From: Candidatus Acidiferrum typicum | Lineage (GTDB): Bacteria > Acidobacteriota > Terriglobia > Acidiferrales > UBA7541 | Reading direction: 5' to 3' | DNA length: 64,000 nucleotides | Assembly: GCA_025463055.1 (NCBI GenBank) | Contig: JAOAPV010000037.1 | Location: 1 to 64,000, forward strand | In this document: one piece after another, positions 1,641 to 17,678 of the stretch | How the letters are laid out: the number at the start of each line of letters is the position of its first letter | How positions within the stretch are numbered: position 1 is the first letter of the stretch | Notes under the pieces: model-generated | The model's database searches: none | What the model saw: the letters and a program-made list of their open reading frames with translations, nothing else | What the model was told of the DNA's origin: nothing | Translations under genes and position numbers: made by a program

Positions 1641-1988
1641 ATGACTATCGAAATCCGGAACGCGGCACTAGAAGCCAGACTTCAAAAGCAACTCAAATCG
1701 ACCGGCTCCCGCACCGTCGAGGAAGTCCTACAGCACTTGCTCGAAACACAAGAGGAGCAGGATCGCTGGCTGTCCGAGAACCGCGACGCAATCAATGCGA
1801 AAATCCGACGCGGAATCGAGCAACTCGACCGTGGCGAAGGGATTCCGGACCGCCAACTTAAGTCTCATCTCAGGAAACTGAAGACATGCCCCACACGCTC
1901 AGTTAACGGTTTGCAGGTATTCGACTTACCCCCGCGGTCCCCTAAAGTCAGTTCAAAGAGGACGCGCACCCTGAGCACAGGGGAATAA
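1641..1988 (+). CDS. Orphan ParD/RHH-type antitoxin with divergent C-terminal tail
   Basis: The first ~80 residues (helical, charged, with INAKIRRGIEQLDRGEGIP) match the ParD-like antitoxins that neutralise ParE/RelE toxins and autoregulate their operon through an N-terminal ribbon-helix-helix. After LRKLKT (about residue 83) the protein runs on for ~33 residues of unrelated, Ser/Pro/Arg-rich sequence. A second ATG at 1886 in another frame gives only MPHTLS before a stop and may be the vestige of the toxin start. No toxin ORF follows. The gene is preceded by its own -10 and a good ribosome binding site. I infer a decayed toxin-antitoxin pair; function of this antitoxin is uncertain. Confidence 0.65.
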   Translation: MTIEIRNAALEARLQKQLKSTGSRTVEEVLQHLLETQEEQDRWLSENRDAINAKIRRGIEQLDRGEGIPDRQLKSHLRKLKTCPTRSVNGLQVFDLPPRSPKVSSKRTRTLSTGE

Positions 1989-2063
1989 CGATAGTGCATA
2001 CCCTATTGGATTCACTTTATGCCGCGCGAAGGTCCTTTGTTTTTAGTTACTTATAGAATTAGC

Positions 2064-2093
2064 TTGACAAACTGATACTGAGTCCGGTATTAT
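2064..2093 (+). promoter_or_regulatory. Sigma-70-type promoter TTGACA-18-TATTAT
   Basis: A consensus -35 (2064-2069) and a near-consensus -10 (2088-2093) are separated by 18 bp. Transcription would start near 2100 and lead into the gene at 2224. Confidence 0.55.
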
Positions 2094-2171
2094 TCGCGGG
2101 TAGAGTTTTGCGCCCAGTCGTAAGAGAGCACCCCTCAGCAGCATCCCTTGGAAATTTTTCGGCAACTCTTC

Positions 2172-2199
2172 CCTCCGTGCTCTCTGTGTCTCTGTGGCC
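2172..2199 (+). repeat. Short dispersed repeat copy (CTCTGTGTCTCTGTGGCC type)
   Basis: The stretch ending TCTGTGTCTCTGTGGCC recurs in shortened form at 7973-7991. Read on the minus strand it gives the GHRDTEST peptide seen in spurious ORFs. I recognise it as a common intergenic repeat in acidobacterial genomes; copy number here is only two. Confidence 0.45.
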
Positions 2200-2223
2200 A
2201 ATCCTCTTGATCCTGAGGTTCCA

Positions 2224-2637
2224 ATGCAACCAGACTCCCCCGATTCCATCAACAACAAGTGTCTCCGCCAATTCACCGATGGCCGCTCCTGCCGCATGCT
2301 CCGCAAGAAAGACCATCCCACCCTCTGTATCTTCCACGCGCGTGAAGAACAGCAGCTTCTCGAATCCGACCAGCTCGCCGCCGAGTTCGCTTCCCTTTCC
2401 GGCAAGCTCAACACCGTCACCGACATAAACCACGTCCTCGGCAAAGTCTTCACCGCTCTAGCCGAAAAACGCATCTCGCACCAGACCGCCGACACGTTCG
2501 CCTATCTCGGCCAGCTACTACTCCAATCCATTCCCGGCGTCAAAACCGAACTCAATGCAGCCGTGCAACATCCCGGCGCCTACGATGCCATGCTTCGGCA
2601 CAACATCCCGTTTTTCAGCAAGTTCCGCAAGCAATGA
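2224..2637 (+). CDS. Conserved acidobacterial hypothetical protein with Cys/His cluster
   Basis: The start is the ATG at 2224, preceded by GAGG (2215-2218), rather than the in-frame ATG at 2194 that lies in the repeat. The 137-residue protein has an N-terminal cluster C-(x)8-DGRSC-(x)~12-CIFH, resembling small zinc-binding modules. A helical C-terminal part follows, with TFAYLGQLLLQSI. I recognise the pattern from hypothetical proteins of acidobacteria, but no function is known. It is monocistronic, with its own promoter at 2064-2093. Confidence 0.7.
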   Translation: MQPDSPDSINNKCLRQFTDGRSCRMLRKKDHPTLCIFHAREEQQLLESDQLAAEFASLSGKLNTVTDINHVLGKVFTALAEKRISHQTADTFAYLGQLLLQSIPGVKTELNAAVQHPGAYDAMLRHNIPFFSKFRKQ

Positions 2638-13564: not shown

Positions 13565-13807
13565 CTAAAGGGTCGAAAGCTTAGGCTTAGGGGGAGCCAA
13601 CTCGCGGGCGACGACTGTGTCTGCAAAGCCGCAAGCCTTATGGCTACCGTCGCAAAAGGGCTTATTGGAGGATTGCCCGCAGCGGCATAGGCCTACGGTC
13701 GTTCGCCCCGCCAATCCGAAGGGCTTTCCTTCCGGATCGACGATCTCGAAATCGCCCTCGATACGAAGCGAGCCGTTATGGTTTACAGTGATCTTGGTCG
13801 CCGCCAC
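13565..13807 (-). CDS. CDGSH-type iron-sulfur protein
   Basis: 80 residues from the GTG at 13807, chosen because AGGAG lies five bases upstream; a longer reading to 13843 has no such site. The single CDGSH module CRCGQSSNKPFCDGSH has the three Cys and one His that bind a [2Fe-2S] cluster in mitoNEET-like proteins. The N-terminal part (NHNGSLRIEGDFEIVDPEG) forms the expected beta strands. It is probably a small cytoplasmic electron-transfer or redox-sensing protein. It lies 111 bp downstream of moeZ on the same strand. Confidence 0.9.
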   Translation of the reverse strand: MAATKITVNHNGSLRIEGDFEIVDPEGKPFGLAGRTTVGLCRCGQSSNKPFCDGSHKACGFADTVVARELAPPKPKLSTL

Positions 13808-13918
13808 TTTTTCTCCTAGGAACCGCACCCCATGATAGCGCACTCGAGGCAGATGCCCGTGCCTTTGCGCGAAAAGCGAACGCGTCTGCTACGGATATGT
13901 AATTCTACGGTCGTACGA

Positions 13919-15109
13919 TCAGTATTTCGGGACGGAGGGATCGACCTCGTCCGACCAGGCCAGGATGCCGCCCTTGAGATTCAAGATTTTGCGGAATCCG
14001 GCTTTGCGCAGGAAATCCACGGCTTCGGCGGAACGCTTGCCGCTGCGGCAATGTGCCACGATTTCGCGCGAAGAATCCAATTCGTGCACCCGGCGCGGAA
14101 GTTCGCCAAGCGGGATCAGATTGCCATTTAAATTGCAGATCTGGAATTCGTGGGGCTCGCGCACATCGAGAATGAAAAGATCGTCACCACGATCCAGGCG
14201 CGACTTCAACTCGCGCGGGGTAATCTCGGGAACTTGTACATTGGAGTCCGGCGCTTCTTCACCGCGTACGCCGCAGAATTCGTAGTAATCGATCAGCTTG
14301 TTTATCGTGCGATGCTCGCCGCACATCGGGCAGTTGGGGTTTTTGCGTAGCTTCAGCTCGCGGAATTTCATCGCTAGCGCGTCGAAGAGTAGCAAGCGAC
14401 CGGCGAGGCTGTCGCCGCGGCCTAGAATTAGCTTTATCGTTTCCATCGCCTGTAGTGAGCCGACGATTCCCGGCAGGACGCCTAGCACGCCGCCTTCTGC
14501 GCACGAAGGGACTAACCCGGGTGGTGGCGGTTCCGGATACAGGCACCGATAGCAGGGGCCTTCTGGCATCCCGAAGACCGTGACTTGCCCTTCGAATCGA
14601 AAAATGGAGCCGTACACGTTAGGCTTGCCAAGCAAGATGCACGCGTCGTTGACGAGGTAGCGGGTGGGGAAATTATCGGTGCCGTCGACTATGATGTCGA
14701 AATCCTTAAAGAGCTCCAGGGCATTGTCGCTGGTCAGCTTGGTCTCGAATGTGTCGATCTGAATGTCTGGATTAAGGCTGGAGAGGCGCTCGCGAGCAGC
14801 TTCGGTCTTGGGTTTGCCAACATCGCTGGAACCAAACGTAACCTGGCGCTGCAAGTTCGTGAGATCAACGACGTCGAAGTCCACAAGACCTAGCCTGCCA
14901 ACCCCGGCTGCGGCAAGGTACAGGCCTAGTGGCGCGCCCAATCCACCGGTGCCGATGAGCAACACCTTGGAGTTCTTGAGCTTGAGCTGACCTTCCATGC
15001 CCACCTCGGGCATGATCAAGTGGCGGCTGTAGCGGAGGATTTCCTCGTTCGAAAGGGTCGTCGCGTTGGCCGCTGGCGCGCCCGTCATTGGTTGTACTTT
15101 AGTTGCCAT
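13919..15109 (-). CDS. moeZ: Sulfur-carrier adenylyltransferase/sulfurtransferase (MoeB-rhodanese fusion)
   Basis: 396 residues. The E1-like domain (~20-270) has the ATP-binding GTGGLGAPLGLYLAAAGVG, DFDVVDLTNLQRQ and zinc-binding CPMCGE. The C-terminal rhodanese domain (~290-396) has active-site Cys354 in CRSGKRS. Enzymes of this architecture adenylate the C-terminal Gly of CysO/MoaD/ThiS-type carriers and pass sulfur to give a thiocarboxylate. AGGGG lies upstream of the ATG. It is the last gene of a cysM-mec-cysO-moeZ cluster, which points to CysO as its main client, while a role in molybdopterin synthesis is also possible. Confidence 0.93.
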   Translation of the reverse strand: MATKVQPMTGAPAANATTLSNEEILRYSRHLIMPEVGMEGQLKLKNSKVLLIGTGGLGAPLGLYLAAAGVGRLGLVDFDVVDLTNLQRQVTFGSSDVGKPKTEAARERLSSLNPDIQIDTFETKLTSDNALELFKDFDIIVDGTDNFPTRYLVNDACILLGKPNVYGSIFRFEGQVTVFGMPEGPCYRCLYPEPPPPGLVPSCAEGGVLGVLPGIVGSLQAMETIKLILGRGDSLAGRLLLFDALAMKFRELKLRKNPNCPMCGEHRTINKLIDYYEFCGVRGEEAPDSNVQVPEITPRELKSRLDRGDDLFILDVREPHEFQICNLNGNLIPLGELPRRVHELDSSREIVAHCRSGKRSAEAVDFLRKAGFRKILNLKGGILAWSDEVDPSVPKY

Positions 15110-15261
15110 AAAATTTCCCCTGAACCACCAGTCTAGTTCAAATCAGATGAAAAAGAACGTCAAGCGATGCAAGTCCGAGCGGTCTCCCCTGGAGCAAGCA
15201 AGCAGATCCCTCGCTTCCTCGGCATGACAGATTTGTGCAGGGATTTGTAATGGAGAACGAA

Positions 15262-15576
15262 TTAGGCGTGAGGGCGGCTACAACAACGACGCACGAGAGA
15301 GGATCCGCCAGCGATGGAAGGAACGATGCTGATGGTGTCGCCGTCTTTGGTGGGGGTATTTTCTTTTGCGAGGTAACGGATATCCTCGTCATTCACGTAG
15401 ACATTTACGAAGCTGCGCAGCTTCCCTTCTTCGGTAAACAAATGCTTGCGCAGGTCGCCGAATTCGGTGGTTAGCCGGCCCAACGCTTCGCCGACGGTTG
15501 CGGCCTTGACTTCCGTCGAATCGCGCTTTCCCGCGTACACACGCAGCGGCGTTGGAATAATTACCTTCACTCCCAT
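15262..15576 (-). CDS. cysO: CysO-like sulfur carrier with a C-terminal extension past Gly-Gly
   Basis: The start at 15576 (MGVKVIIPTPLRVYAGKRD) has GAGGAG nine bases upstream. The ubiquitin-like fold is of the MoaD/ThiS/CysO family. The functional Gly-Gly lies at residues 90-91 in SIVPSIAGG. In typical CysO the protein ends there, but here 13 more residues follow (SSLVRRCCSRPHA) before the stop. The Gly-Gly must be terminal to be adenylated by MoeZ and thiocarboxylated, so the tail must be removed. The JAMM peptidase encoded 20 bp upstream is the obvious candidate. Alternatively the tail reflects a recent stop loss. Confidence 0.88.
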   Translation of the reverse strand: MGVKVIIPTPLRVYAGKRDSTEVKAATVGEALGRLTTEFGDLRKHLFTEEGKLRSFVNVYVNDEDIRYLAKENTPTKDGDTISIVPSIAGGSSLVRRCCSRPHA

Positions 15577-15596
15577 AATGAATTTCTCCTCACGAA

Positions 15597-16085
15597 CTAC
15601 AACTTGGCCGCGCGATCGCGAATCGCAATTTCCTCGCAAGCATATTCCGAACGGTCGTCACTTAGTCGCCACGAAGTCATCTCCGCGGGTTTGCCGTTGG
15701 CCACGCTCACAATCACATAGCTATACCATGGCCAGGCATGCTCGCGGTCGTACTCGCTGGGCCGTGCCGGATGGTCCGGATGCGAATGATACCAGCCAAC
15801 GACCTCGAGCTTTTTTTCGCGAGCGGCTTTCTCCGCATCGCGCACATCTTCCGCGGTAACGGAAAAGCGATTGTGCGGTGAATCTTCCCGACGGTTCGTC
15901 AGCGGGTATAGCCCCTTGACCTCGCGCAAGGGCAATTGCACGCCGCCGGCCGTGGCCACGTCTCCATCCGCACCGTCGCGGCCCAGTAATGCGCCGCAAC
16001 ATTCATGTGGATAGGTCTCGGCACCGTGCTGGCGGATCTGCTGCGCGATTTCGGCGGTCATCTTCAATGTTGGCGCAGTGGCCAT
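15597..16085 (-). CDS. mec: JAMM/MPN+ metallopeptidase, Mec-like
   Basis: 162 residues with a complete JAMM site: Glu28 in YPHECCG, then His100-Ser-His102 and Ser110/Asp113 in HSHPDHPARPSEYD, the HxH-x7-S-x2-D pattern that binds zinc. In Mycobacterium, Mec cleaves cysteine from the CysO-Cys adduct; QbsD-type relatives trim C-terminal tails of QbsE-like carriers. Both jobs would be useful here, because CysO carries a tail. The gene starts two bases after the cysM stop and ends 20 bp before cysO. Cytoplasmic. Confidence 0.92.
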   Translation of the reverse strand: MATAPTLKMTAEIAQQIRQHGAETYPHECCGALLGRDGADGDVATAGGVQLPLREVKGLYPLTNRREDSPHNRFSVTAEDVRDAEKAAREKKLEVVGWYHSHPDHPARPSEYDREHAWPWYSYVIVSVANGKPAEMTSWRLSDDRSEYACEEIAIRDRAAKL

Positions 16086-16087
16086 AA

Positions 16088-17047
16088 TTAATACTCGTCC
16101 CAGAAACGTTCACTTAGGTATTTTGCGCCGGAATCGGCGAAAACCGTAACGATCACTGCATGCTGCTCTCGCGGAATTTTCTTCGCAACCGCGAAGCAGC
16201 CAGCCAGAGCGGCCGCGGCGCTTGGACTGACCAACAAACCTTCTTCGCGCGCGATGCGTTTGACGAGGCGATAGGCGTCTTCGGTACTGACGGCAATATC
16301 TTCATCGGCCAGCGTGTCGTCGTAAATTGCAGGACGAATCGCCGTTTCCATGTGCTTCCAGCCTTCGAGGCCGTGAAAGGATGCGTCCGGCTGCAAACTG
16401 ATGCAGCGAATCGCCGGATTCAATTCGCGCAAACGCCGCGTGGCTCCTACAAACGTGCCGCTAGTGCCCAGGCCGGCGACAAAATGCGTAATGCGCCCGG
16501 CAGTCTGCTCCCAAATTTCATTAGCAGTGCCACGATAGTGGGCTTGCCAGTTCGCCGGGTTGCTGTATTGGTCCGCGTAAAAGTATTTCTCGGGTTCGGC
16601 GCCGACGATTTTCTGGACGCGACGAATGGCGCCGTCCGTACCTTCATCGCCGGGCGTAAAGATTATCTCTGCGCCGAAGGCCCCCAAAATCCGTTTCCGC
16701 TCGTGTGAAGCGCTGTCCGGTACACAGAGCGCCACCGGATAACCCATGGCGGCGCCGATCATTGCGTACGCGATGCCCGTGTTGCCGCTGGTCGCGTCAA
16801 TAATCGTCTTTCCAGGCCGAAGCGCTCCGCTCGCCAGTCCCGCCTGAATCATGCTCAGGGCCGGGCGGTCCTTTACCGAGCCACCGGGATTGAACCATTC
16901 CGCCTTGGCTGCAAACTCGATCTTGGGGAACTCGTGCCCTACTCTCTCGAGACGAAGCAGTGGTGTATTTCCAATACGCTCGAGCACAGACTGCCCGATC
17001 GCACCGGAGGGGGTGCCAGATTCCCTTTTAGCCGTAGCTGCTGGCAT
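16088..17047 (-). CDS. cysM: PLP-dependent cysteine synthase, CysM type
   Basis: The ATG at 17047 (MPAATAKRE) is preferred to a TTG four codons upstream. Fold-type II PLP enzyme with Schiff-base Lys59 in NPGGSVKDRP, the phosphate-binding loop SGNTGIAYA and GLGTSGTFVGATRRLRE. It joins O-acetylserine or O-phosphoserine to a sulfur donor. Clustering with mec, cysO and moeZ argues that the donor is the CysO thiocarboxylate rather than free sulfide, as in M. tuberculosis CysM. First gene of the cluster; the 180 bp upstream should hold its promoter, but no clear boxes were seen. Confidence 0.93.
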   Translation of the reverse strand: MPAATAKRESGTPSGAIGQSVLERIGNTPLLRLERVGHEFPKIEFAAKAEWFNPGGSVKDRPALSMIQAGLASGALRPGKTIIDATSGNTGIAYAMIGAAMGYPVALCVPDSASHERKRILGAFGAEIIFTPGDEGTDGAIRRVQKIVGAEPEKYFYADQYSNPANWQAHYRGTANEIWEQTAGRITHFVAGLGTSGTFVGATRRLRELNPAIRCISLQPDASFHGLEGWKHMETAIRPAIYDDTLADEDIAVSTEDAYRLVKRIAREEGLLVSPSAAAALAGCFAVAKKIPREQHAVIVTVFADSGAKYLSERFWDEY

Positions 17048-17228
17048 GTTTGTTCCCAAAGATTAGACGCTCTCCCCAGCCAAATCCCAGCGCAGAACGA
17101 TGACAATCTTACTCTTGATTAGATGCACGGGCCAAACGTGCCGGTATTCGCCGAATCCCTTGAGGGTAGCGCGTCCAGGACCTTGAGCCGCACCGCTTTA
17201 CAGGCGCGCATCGCTTCCTTTACTCTGA

Positions 17229-17678
17229 ATGCCCATGTGGAATGTCGATCAACGATTTTCGCAAAAAGCGATTGAGAGCCTGGCGGCGCTGGGGTTTAGC
17301 GTTGGCAGCACGCGCGGTGTGGTGCGCGTGGAAAAGTACGGGTCTGGCGCGGAGTTCCGCAAGGACTCTGACGGCCTATATCATATGACCGTGCAGCCAA
17401 CCATAATGCTCAATGGGAAGTTCACGCGCTTGTGGGATGCGGGTTACCAGAAATTTCTGCTGACCGACGACGGCCACAAGGTACCCGCGCTGGCTTCGCA
17501 CCTGGCGAATTTGCGGAAATTCAATGAGGAGCTGCGCACCGCTCTAGGGGTGCCTACGTTTTATAACGAAGCGCTCGGTTCAGTGAGCCAGGTCAGCGTG
17601 TACGACCGCGTCAAGGGCCGCGCCGGCGATGTGCCTGACAAGACGGTCGGAGTGCACGGCGACGGCGACAGCCATTAA
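17229..17678 (+). CDS. Hypothetical protein
   Basis: 149 residues, predicted soluble, with no signal peptide or membrane segment. A charged alpha/beta-looking middle (VVRVEKYGSGAEFRK..., KFTRLWDAGYQKFLL) precedes a polar tail. I do not recognise the family and assign no function. It is divergent from the cysM cluster and is followed on the same strand by the receiver-like gene. No strong ribosome binding site is visible, so the start is tentative. Confidence 0.6.
   Translation: MPMWNVDQRFSQKAIESLAALGFSVGSTRGVVRVEKYGSGAEFRKDSDGLYHMTVQPTIMLNGKFTRLWDAGYQKFLLTDDGHKVPALASHLANLRKFNEELRTALGVPTFYNEALGSVSQVSVYDRVKGRAGDVPDKTVGVHGDGDSH

Follow-up and report, generated by a model that had tools for sequence, protein, structure and literature searches.

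The sulfur carrier CysO encoded in the window (the whole 64,000-nucleotide stretch of Candidatus Acidiferrum typicum DNA analyzed here) continues past its Gly-Gly into a 13-residue tail. We propose that this tail is probably a leader peptide, joined to the C terminus of CysO and responsive to cysteine, at which a stalled ribosome would raise expression of moeZ, and that it is tolerated through its removal by the neighboring JAMM protease. JAMM cutting, ribosome stalling and moeZ as the target are what we infer from features read in the sequence: tails, in-frame fusions, a frame-specific enrichment of cysteine codons, a bias toward TGT, and detached poly-Cys mini-ORFs at the corresponding place in four relatives.

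The window operon and its CysO tail

Four genes on the minus strand, identified by open reading frames and profile matches, form a cysteine operon encoding CysM-like, JAMM, CysO and MoeZ-like proteins (Table 1). The ThiS profile PF02597 aligned to CysO residues 5 to 91 (2.3e-12), and solved relatives of CysO included 4n6e_B (5.5e-18) and 3dwg_C (3.5e-15), the latter of which we take to be the CysO of Mycobacterium tuberculosis. On the basis of its ThiS/MoaD-like domain, its Gly-Gly at residues 90 and 91, and its place in an operon with CysM-like, JAMM and MoeZ-like genes, the window protein is assigned as a CysO-type sulfur carrier of the ThiS family, with putative thiocarboxylate formation and cysteine release. 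The JAMM translation contains HSHPDHPARPSEYD, which fits the JAMM pattern HxHx7Sx2D, and this gene was the sole Prok-JAB match reported in the window genome.

Table 1. Features of the cysteine operon in the window
Feature	Position	Strand	Basis
PLP-dependent cysteine synthase (CysM-like), first gene of the operon	16088..17059	-	ORF; PF00291, 3.2e-68
JAMM metalloprotease (Mec-like)	15597..16085	-	ORF; PF14464, 3.3e-27; best solved relative 2kcq_A, 1e-35
CysO ORF, 104 residues	15262..15576	-	Translation, open frame
CysO carrier domain, 91 residues, Gly-Gly end, zero cysteine	15304..15576	-	PF02597 and solved relatives
CysO tail SSLVRRCCSRPHA and stop, predicted to be removed by JAMM	15262..15303	-	Translation
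Two adjacent TGT cysteine codons, proposed as regulatory	15280..15285	-	Context CGT CGT TGT TGT AGC CGC
Untranslated cysO-moeZ gap, 152 nt, proposed seat of the switch, with a repeat-like stretch inside	15110..15261	-	Measured, folded
MoeZ-like E1 enzyme (ThiF and rhodanese), presumed regulated gene	13919..15109	-	ORF; PF00899, 6e-87; PF00581, 3.3e-15

The carrier reads ...SIVPSIAGG-SSLVRRCCSRPHA-stop in one open frame without a frameshift, with the Gly-Gly at 15309-15304, the tail at 15303-15265 and the stop at 15264-15262. This confirmed the tail described in the initial annotation, although the upper limit given there, 15301, is 2 nt short of 15303.

Two further genes were observed. A small open reading frame immediately 3' of moeZ (13565-13843, minus strand), which is a possible fifth gene of the operon, encodes what we take to be a CDGSH iron-sulfur protein. 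The same genome also encodes a second, CysO-like carrier (L002, G000:C93, 1498-1809, minus strand) that ends GG-SR and adjoins a gene that reads as threonine-synthase-like, with no JAMM match within the 3.3-kb stretch.

In the M. tuberculosis CysO/CysM/Mec/MoeZ pathway, as described in the available text of PMC3227635, the sulfur of CysO is carried on the last glycine of Gly-Gly, and Mec releases cysteine from the CysO-cysteine adduct. The same four functions are encoded in the window, where CysO is matched by 3dwg_C; the window operon differs in the 13-residue tail of its CysO and in the presence of the E1 gene inside the operon. In Table 1 of Iyer et al. 2006 (PMC1779556), the E1-containing operon is listed as type 4c and the mycobacterial operon as type 4d, with no E1 named for the latter.

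Tails and fusions beside JAMM genes

Related loci were fetched among the matches listed: 82, then 30 loci and 60 regions (first list), then 29 new loci and 100 regions (second list), with sampling from the two lists favoring close relatives. Of the 301 fetched loci, 285 were kept; 15 identical copies around Gly-Gly and one locus without a readable Gly-Gly (L235) were dropped. Loci with a JAMM gene at most 700 nt upstream were termed JAMM-adjacent (229 loci, window included), and 4/285 with JAMM more than 700 nt upstream were placed in neither JAMM group. Among the JAMM-adjacent loci, 176 carried one or more residues past Gly-Gly without a fusion, 51 had an in-frame fusion to MoeZ, and two (L211 and L262) ended at Gly-Gly. 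The 52 loci without JAMM in the stretch comprised 22 Gly-Gly ends, 27 tails and three fusions (L040, L093 and L108). Gly-Gly ends were found in 2/178 unfused JAMM-adjacent loci versus 22/49 unfused loci without JAMM in view (Fisher 5e-15), a contrast into which phylogeny is mixed, since the group without JAMM comes mostly from other phyla.

The initial annotation had named two ways in which its reading could fail: a tail confined to the window sequence, or a sequencing error that deletes the true stop. Tails proved common beside JAMM genes, and a lost stop is unlikely because 227/229 JAMM-adjacent loci also run past Gly-Gly and the tail of the closest relative (L173, core 96% identical) is even longer, at 26 residues. 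Given the open frame and the tails across JAMM-adjacent loci, a frameshift or lost stop was rejected as the origin of the tail. Tail length reached 39 residues among relatives, and tails differed even where the cores were 84-96% identical. When homologues were aligned for conserved tails, as had been suggested, the presence of a tail was widespread while its sequence was not conserved. A tail conserved as a protein or pro-peptide was rejected, as both sequence and length differ even between near relatives.

In the fused form, CysO is joined in frame through a nearly cysteine-free linker to its own activating enzyme, MoeZ (L005, L014, L031, L085-L090 and others). By a hand count of listed frame length among the matches listed, this form was present in 85/132 CysO-bearing genomes outside the window's class. 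Fusion needs 17 changes on the best FastTree tree (213 rows), a count that weak branches may inflate. A phylum scan of 396 genomes found CysO in at least 175 and Prok-JAB in 195. Among the matches listed, JAMM was encoded by 90/91 genomes with a fusion-length frame, defined as a listed open frame of at least 372 residues and compiled by hand with some frames unread. The one remaining genome, G138 (an assembly of about 650 contigs, 91% complete), has a fused CysO (L093) and no JAMM match. An unrelated, non-JAMM gene lies directly upstream of this fusion (1832-2419, minus strand), and the lack of JAMM in G138 may therefore be real.

Adenylation requires a free carboxylate, as established for MoaD/MoeB and CysO/MoeZ in the available text of PMC3227635; tails and fusions thus imply cutting after Gly-Gly. 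The window has both hallmarks of a capped carrier, residues after Gly-Gly and a neighboring JAMM gene. These data strongly suggest that CysO tails are trimmed by JAMM after Gly-Gly. Short caps are likewise carried by HcyS and QbsE. The initial annotation had suggested that the neighboring JAMM protease may trim a pro-form, and the adjacency of JAMM, the near-universal tails or fusions and the co-occurrence of fusions with JAMM support this; the idea is not entirely new, capped carriers being known (PMC6006322, in part).

The portions of PMC6006322 consulted describe capped sulfur carriers that need a protease: the substrate of QbsD, PtmS2 with PtmS1, and PtmS3, which ends GG-C. Like the window CysO, these systems have extra residues past Gly-Gly that must be trimmed before activation, and for PtmS1 and PtmS2 the JAMM and carrier genes are clustered. 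The PtmS caps are 1-2 residues long, whereas CysO tails extend to 39 residues or a whole E1 and, in loci with a distant moeZ, are Cys-coded. In section 16 of Iyer et al. 2006 (PMC1779556), JAB was predicted to free ThiS/MoaD domains fused to other proteins, and the text available from that source gives a Ubl-ThiF fusion beside cysteine synthase in one species, Pelobacter propionicus. The DRJAMM MoaD-MoaE system, as described in part of PMC8832034, is similar in that a carrier-partner fusion is freed by JAMM, with MoaE as the partner there and the activating enzyme MoeZ in the CysO fusions. Because JAMM trimming agrees with the capped carriers and with the prediction of Iyer et al., this half of our reading is not new and was partly anticipated; the new element is the proposal that a disposable tail encodes a cysteine sensor. 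No description of Cys codons in a carrier tail was found in the best-ranked matches, by title and start of abstract, among open-licence PMC papers.

Some CysO proteins end exactly in GG-C (L059, L063, L064, L066, L068, L069, L076 and L082; Blastococcus, Modestobacter and Mariprofundus) and, as encoded, would equal the CysO-cysteine adduct cut by Mec. A P1' cysteine as a copy of this adduct was rejected as an explanation of the tails, since the position of the first Cys varies (14/64 directly after Gly-Gly) and the idea fits only cases like the GG-C of Blastococcus.

Cysteine codons in the tails and the distance to moeZ

Split operons were compared by D, the number of nucleotides separating the cysO stop from the RYSRH-type motif of moeZ. 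moeZ was called distant at D of at least 120 nt, a limit picked after the discovery loci were seen. The idea was formed on the discovery set (L001-L172), and a second set was fetched afterwards. In the 81 distant-moeZ loci, 138/658 tail codons (21%) were Cys in frame, compared with 20/658 (3%) and 5/658 (0.8%) in the other frames of the same tails. All three reading frames of the gap had about 2-2.5% Cys, and the CysO domains contained 6 Cys in 7345 residues. The enrichment was present in the discovery loci (59/236 in frame; 8 and 4 in the other frames) and, taken separately, in the second set (79/422 in frame; 12 and 1). In close-moeZ tails the excess was smaller, at 34/492 in frame against 11 and 8 in the other frames.

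A C-x-C-x ending is shared by 25 loci (CIC in 21, exactly RCICS in nine); this CxC family was delimited after five further C-x-C-x matches (L024, L136, L149, L192 and L291) had been excluded by hand. Enrichment of Cys over the gap frames was 16.5-fold within the family and 6.9-fold outside it. No other residue was comparable, the next most enriched being Met (3.1-fold, on 5 residues only). The last Cys lay no more than 2 codons from the stop in 54/64 Cys tails with a distant moeZ. The twin Cys of the window is a member of this strong, group-wide enrichment: the tail has only these two Cys codons, five codons ahead of the stop, and within RRCCSRPHA it has TGT TGT AGC in common with L137, L139, L141 and L142. 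Fused tails elsewhere looked like detached leaders (CCSCCPLL, TVCCPACCCCQ and CCPLAACCCR).

The ratio of TGT to TGC was 103:35 in the tails and 118:1055 in the PALP, JAMM and MoeZ genes of the same loci, the latter taken from alignment segments with possible overlap (Fisher 9e-60). Outside the CxC family, it was 66:16 in tails compared with 69:134 in all frames of the gaps (p 8e-13). Selection on the tail as a protein would give no reason to prefer the rare codon.

Cysteine in the tail was associated with a distant moeZ. Among 165 split loci with JAMM and MoeZ, 64 had Cys and a D of at least 120 nt, 18 had Cys and a shorter D, 17 had no Cys and a longer D, and 66 had no Cys and a shorter D (p 6e-14, ancestry ignored). 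The same classes numbered 30, 6, 4 and 18 in the discovery set (p 1.3e-6, ancestry ignored), and the association for any Cys was repeated in the second set (34, 12, 13 and 48; p 6e-8, ancestry ignored). moeZ was distant for 45/50 tails with at least two Cys, 19/32 with one and 17/83 with none; the five tails with at least two Cys and a close moeZ were L024, L028, L216, L223 and L225.

Nearest-neighbor pairs contrasting at least two Cys with none favored the link in 6/6 cases at 85% identity or more and in 14/16 at 75%, while pairs contrasting any Cys with none at 85% or more did not support it (6/11). Under tree control, too few independent pairs were left for a test of the link: only six supported pairs contrasted at least two Cys with none (sign test, median p 0.5), and 13 contrasted any Cys with none (median p 1). 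The best FastTree tree implies 16 changes of the two-Cys state, again a count that weak branches may inflate. Shared ancestry accounts for part of the association between Cys tails and long gaps, which is structured by clade.

Leader peptides, RNA features and rival readings

Among the 20 long-gap loci whose tails lack Cys, four contain a detached mini-ORF of 5-8 Cys between cysO and moeZ: MHSLPSTTDRCCCCPACA in L021, ...MPRYSACCCCCPSCCCR in L261, ...MRCCCCRPSCR in L280 and MKPTVTDRCCMCCPSCR in L293. In mononucleotide-shuffled gaps, four Cys were reached in 0.4% of trials. These detached mini-ORFs are our strongest reason for seeing in the tail a leader peptide that is joined to CysO. At the heads of operons, mini-ORFs with at least three Cys were present within 420 nt in 33/143 loci, a count made without a shuffle control. 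Two of these (L020 and L044, from Ignavibacteriae relatives), picked by eye and carrying runs of 4-5 Cys near the stop, lie upstream of the PLP enzyme gene and end ...LRCICCCCC and ...TPLACCCCPHPC. Elsewhere in the window genome, no convincing poly-Cys mini-ORF was found among 30 fetched of 51 pattern matches.

In the proposed mechanism, the ribosome would complete the Cys-free carrier as far as Gly-Gly and then meet Cys codons, mostly rare TGT, before the stop. Scarcity of charged Cys-tRNA would stall it in the tail, the stall would raise expression of the downstream moeZ, and the additional MoeZ would recharge CysO. JAMM would cut after Gly-Gly and remove the tail, so that any tail could be tolerated, from a random peptide or a run of regulatory codons to, as in many relatives, the whole of MoeZ.

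Intrinsic terminators are an improbable switch, being found in 1/25, 0/39 and 1/17 loci, near shuffled levels; the minus strand of the window is without a terminator-like site, both such sites found lying on the other strand. Because intrinsic terminators are nearly absent, we favor a signal passed on by a Rho-dependent switch, of which tna is an example, or by a translational one. The gap start was C-rich and G-poor, as for Rho (median C-G 0.075 versus -0.025, p 3e-4, with a control that reaches into moeZ; p 0.0045 against Cys-free long gaps), which weakly suggests a Rho-like feature. Modeled stalling raised Shine-Dalgarno exposure in nine and lowered it in none of the 25 CxC loci; in the 39 loci outside the family, exposure went up in nine and down in eight (window, 0.18 to 0.21), a mixed picture that makes Shine-Dalgarno unmasking doubtful as a general switch. 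No Rfam match to a known RNA family was found in window 13800-17400.

In the 25 CxC loci, such as L199, L215 and L222, a hairpin begins at the cysO stop codon (UAGCCUGGG...CCCGGGC); 5' of it, the Cys codons may form a second, small hairpin. The median folding z-score of the stop-codon hairpin was -2.2 to -2.4 (loci -0.1 to -4.9), compared with -0.2 to -0.4 in other groups. In the alignment, three rows of which (L227, L253 and L283) are misaligned in the stem, 97.6% of cells were paired in the basal helix and 93.4% over the whole tested structure, versus 26-52% when slid. Covariation was thin, with one double-sided pair, and did not convincingly exceed that of column shuffles, which reached the score in 36/500 cases and the paired cells in 85/500.

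Poly-cysteine leader ORFs are described for actinobacterial cys operons in the available text of Seliverstov 2005 (PMC1262725) and, via parts of PMC9031893 and PMC13236596, by Canestrari 2020, and a Rho-type switch has been proposed for these leaders (PMC1262725). The CysO tails resemble them in having Cys codon runs by the stop, upstream of a cysteine gene and without an obvious terminator. The actinobacterial leaders stand alone as short ORFs ahead of the operon, whereas the tail codons usually form the 3' end of a structural gene within the operon and are presumably cut off as peptide. The window has the Cys codons of an attenuator near a stop and upstream of a cysteine gene (two TGT, within the group enrichment). 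These codons are fused to cysO in the window, while in L021, L261, L280 and L293 the leader ORF is separate. Since the window has no separate ORF and no switch was found, the tail is not classed as a cysteine attenuator, although it would work like one.

The main competing explanation is a plain capped carrier, in which JAMM removes anything past Gly-Gly, the stop drifts freely and the tail is meaningless. Such drift would suit the scarcity of Gly-Gly ends in unfused JAMM-adjacent loci, the common in-frame fusions, the divergence of tails between nearly identical cores, and the finding that half of the split loci (83/165) have a Cys-free tail. However, drift predicts the roughly 2% Cys of the gap frames rather than 21% in a single frame, and it leaves both the TGT bias and the detached poly-Cys mini-ORFs unexplained; we regard it as rather unlikely. 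Cysteine pairs (CC and CxC), including the endings of the CxC family, are what would be expected if the Cys-rich tail worked as protein, be it a redox switch, a metal-binding tag or a JAMM recognition element. This is improbable in view of the preference for TGT over TGC, the position of the first Cys anywhere from 0 to 13 residues past Gly-Gly, the similar Cys block in mini-ORFs separate from CysO, and the linkers of 54 fused CysO-MoeZ loci, which contain 1 Cys in 1142 residues. The redox switch that the initial annotation had seen in the twin Cys is likewise unlikely, the signal being one of codons (TGT, frame-specific), at a varying distance from Gly-Gly and also present in detached mini-ORFs.

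A tail and long gap made of inserted-repeat debris that reads as Cys by chance would agree with the repeat-like GTCATNCYGAG, found in the tail or gap of 8/81 distant-moeZ loci: the window (15110-15261), L137, L139, L141, L142, L147, L148 and L173, where the repeat runs into the CysO tail and lengthens it. The 73 distant-moeZ loci without this sequence, the only repeat type searched, nevertheless keep the same Cys excess (111/542 in frame versus 17 and 3), and an origin in debris is exceedingly unlikely.

The reading of the tail as a fused cysteine leader leads to a broader claim, to which we give an even chance: that bacteria have repeatedly placed an amino-acid sensor in the part of a functional gene that encodes its C terminus, with a JAMM-cut tail whose cysteine codons report Cys-tRNA charging, which controls the gene for the activating enzyme of CysO and is selected as codons, not as protein. 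If true, proteolytic maturation of ubiquitin-like sulfur carriers would be joined to ribosome-based amino-acid sensing, a new combination, and a cleavable tail would constitute evolutionary free space for regulation. It would also explain the rarity of Gly-Gly ends in carriers with an adjacent JAMM gene, and it predicts two jobs for the JAMM protease in acidobacterial cysteine synthesis.
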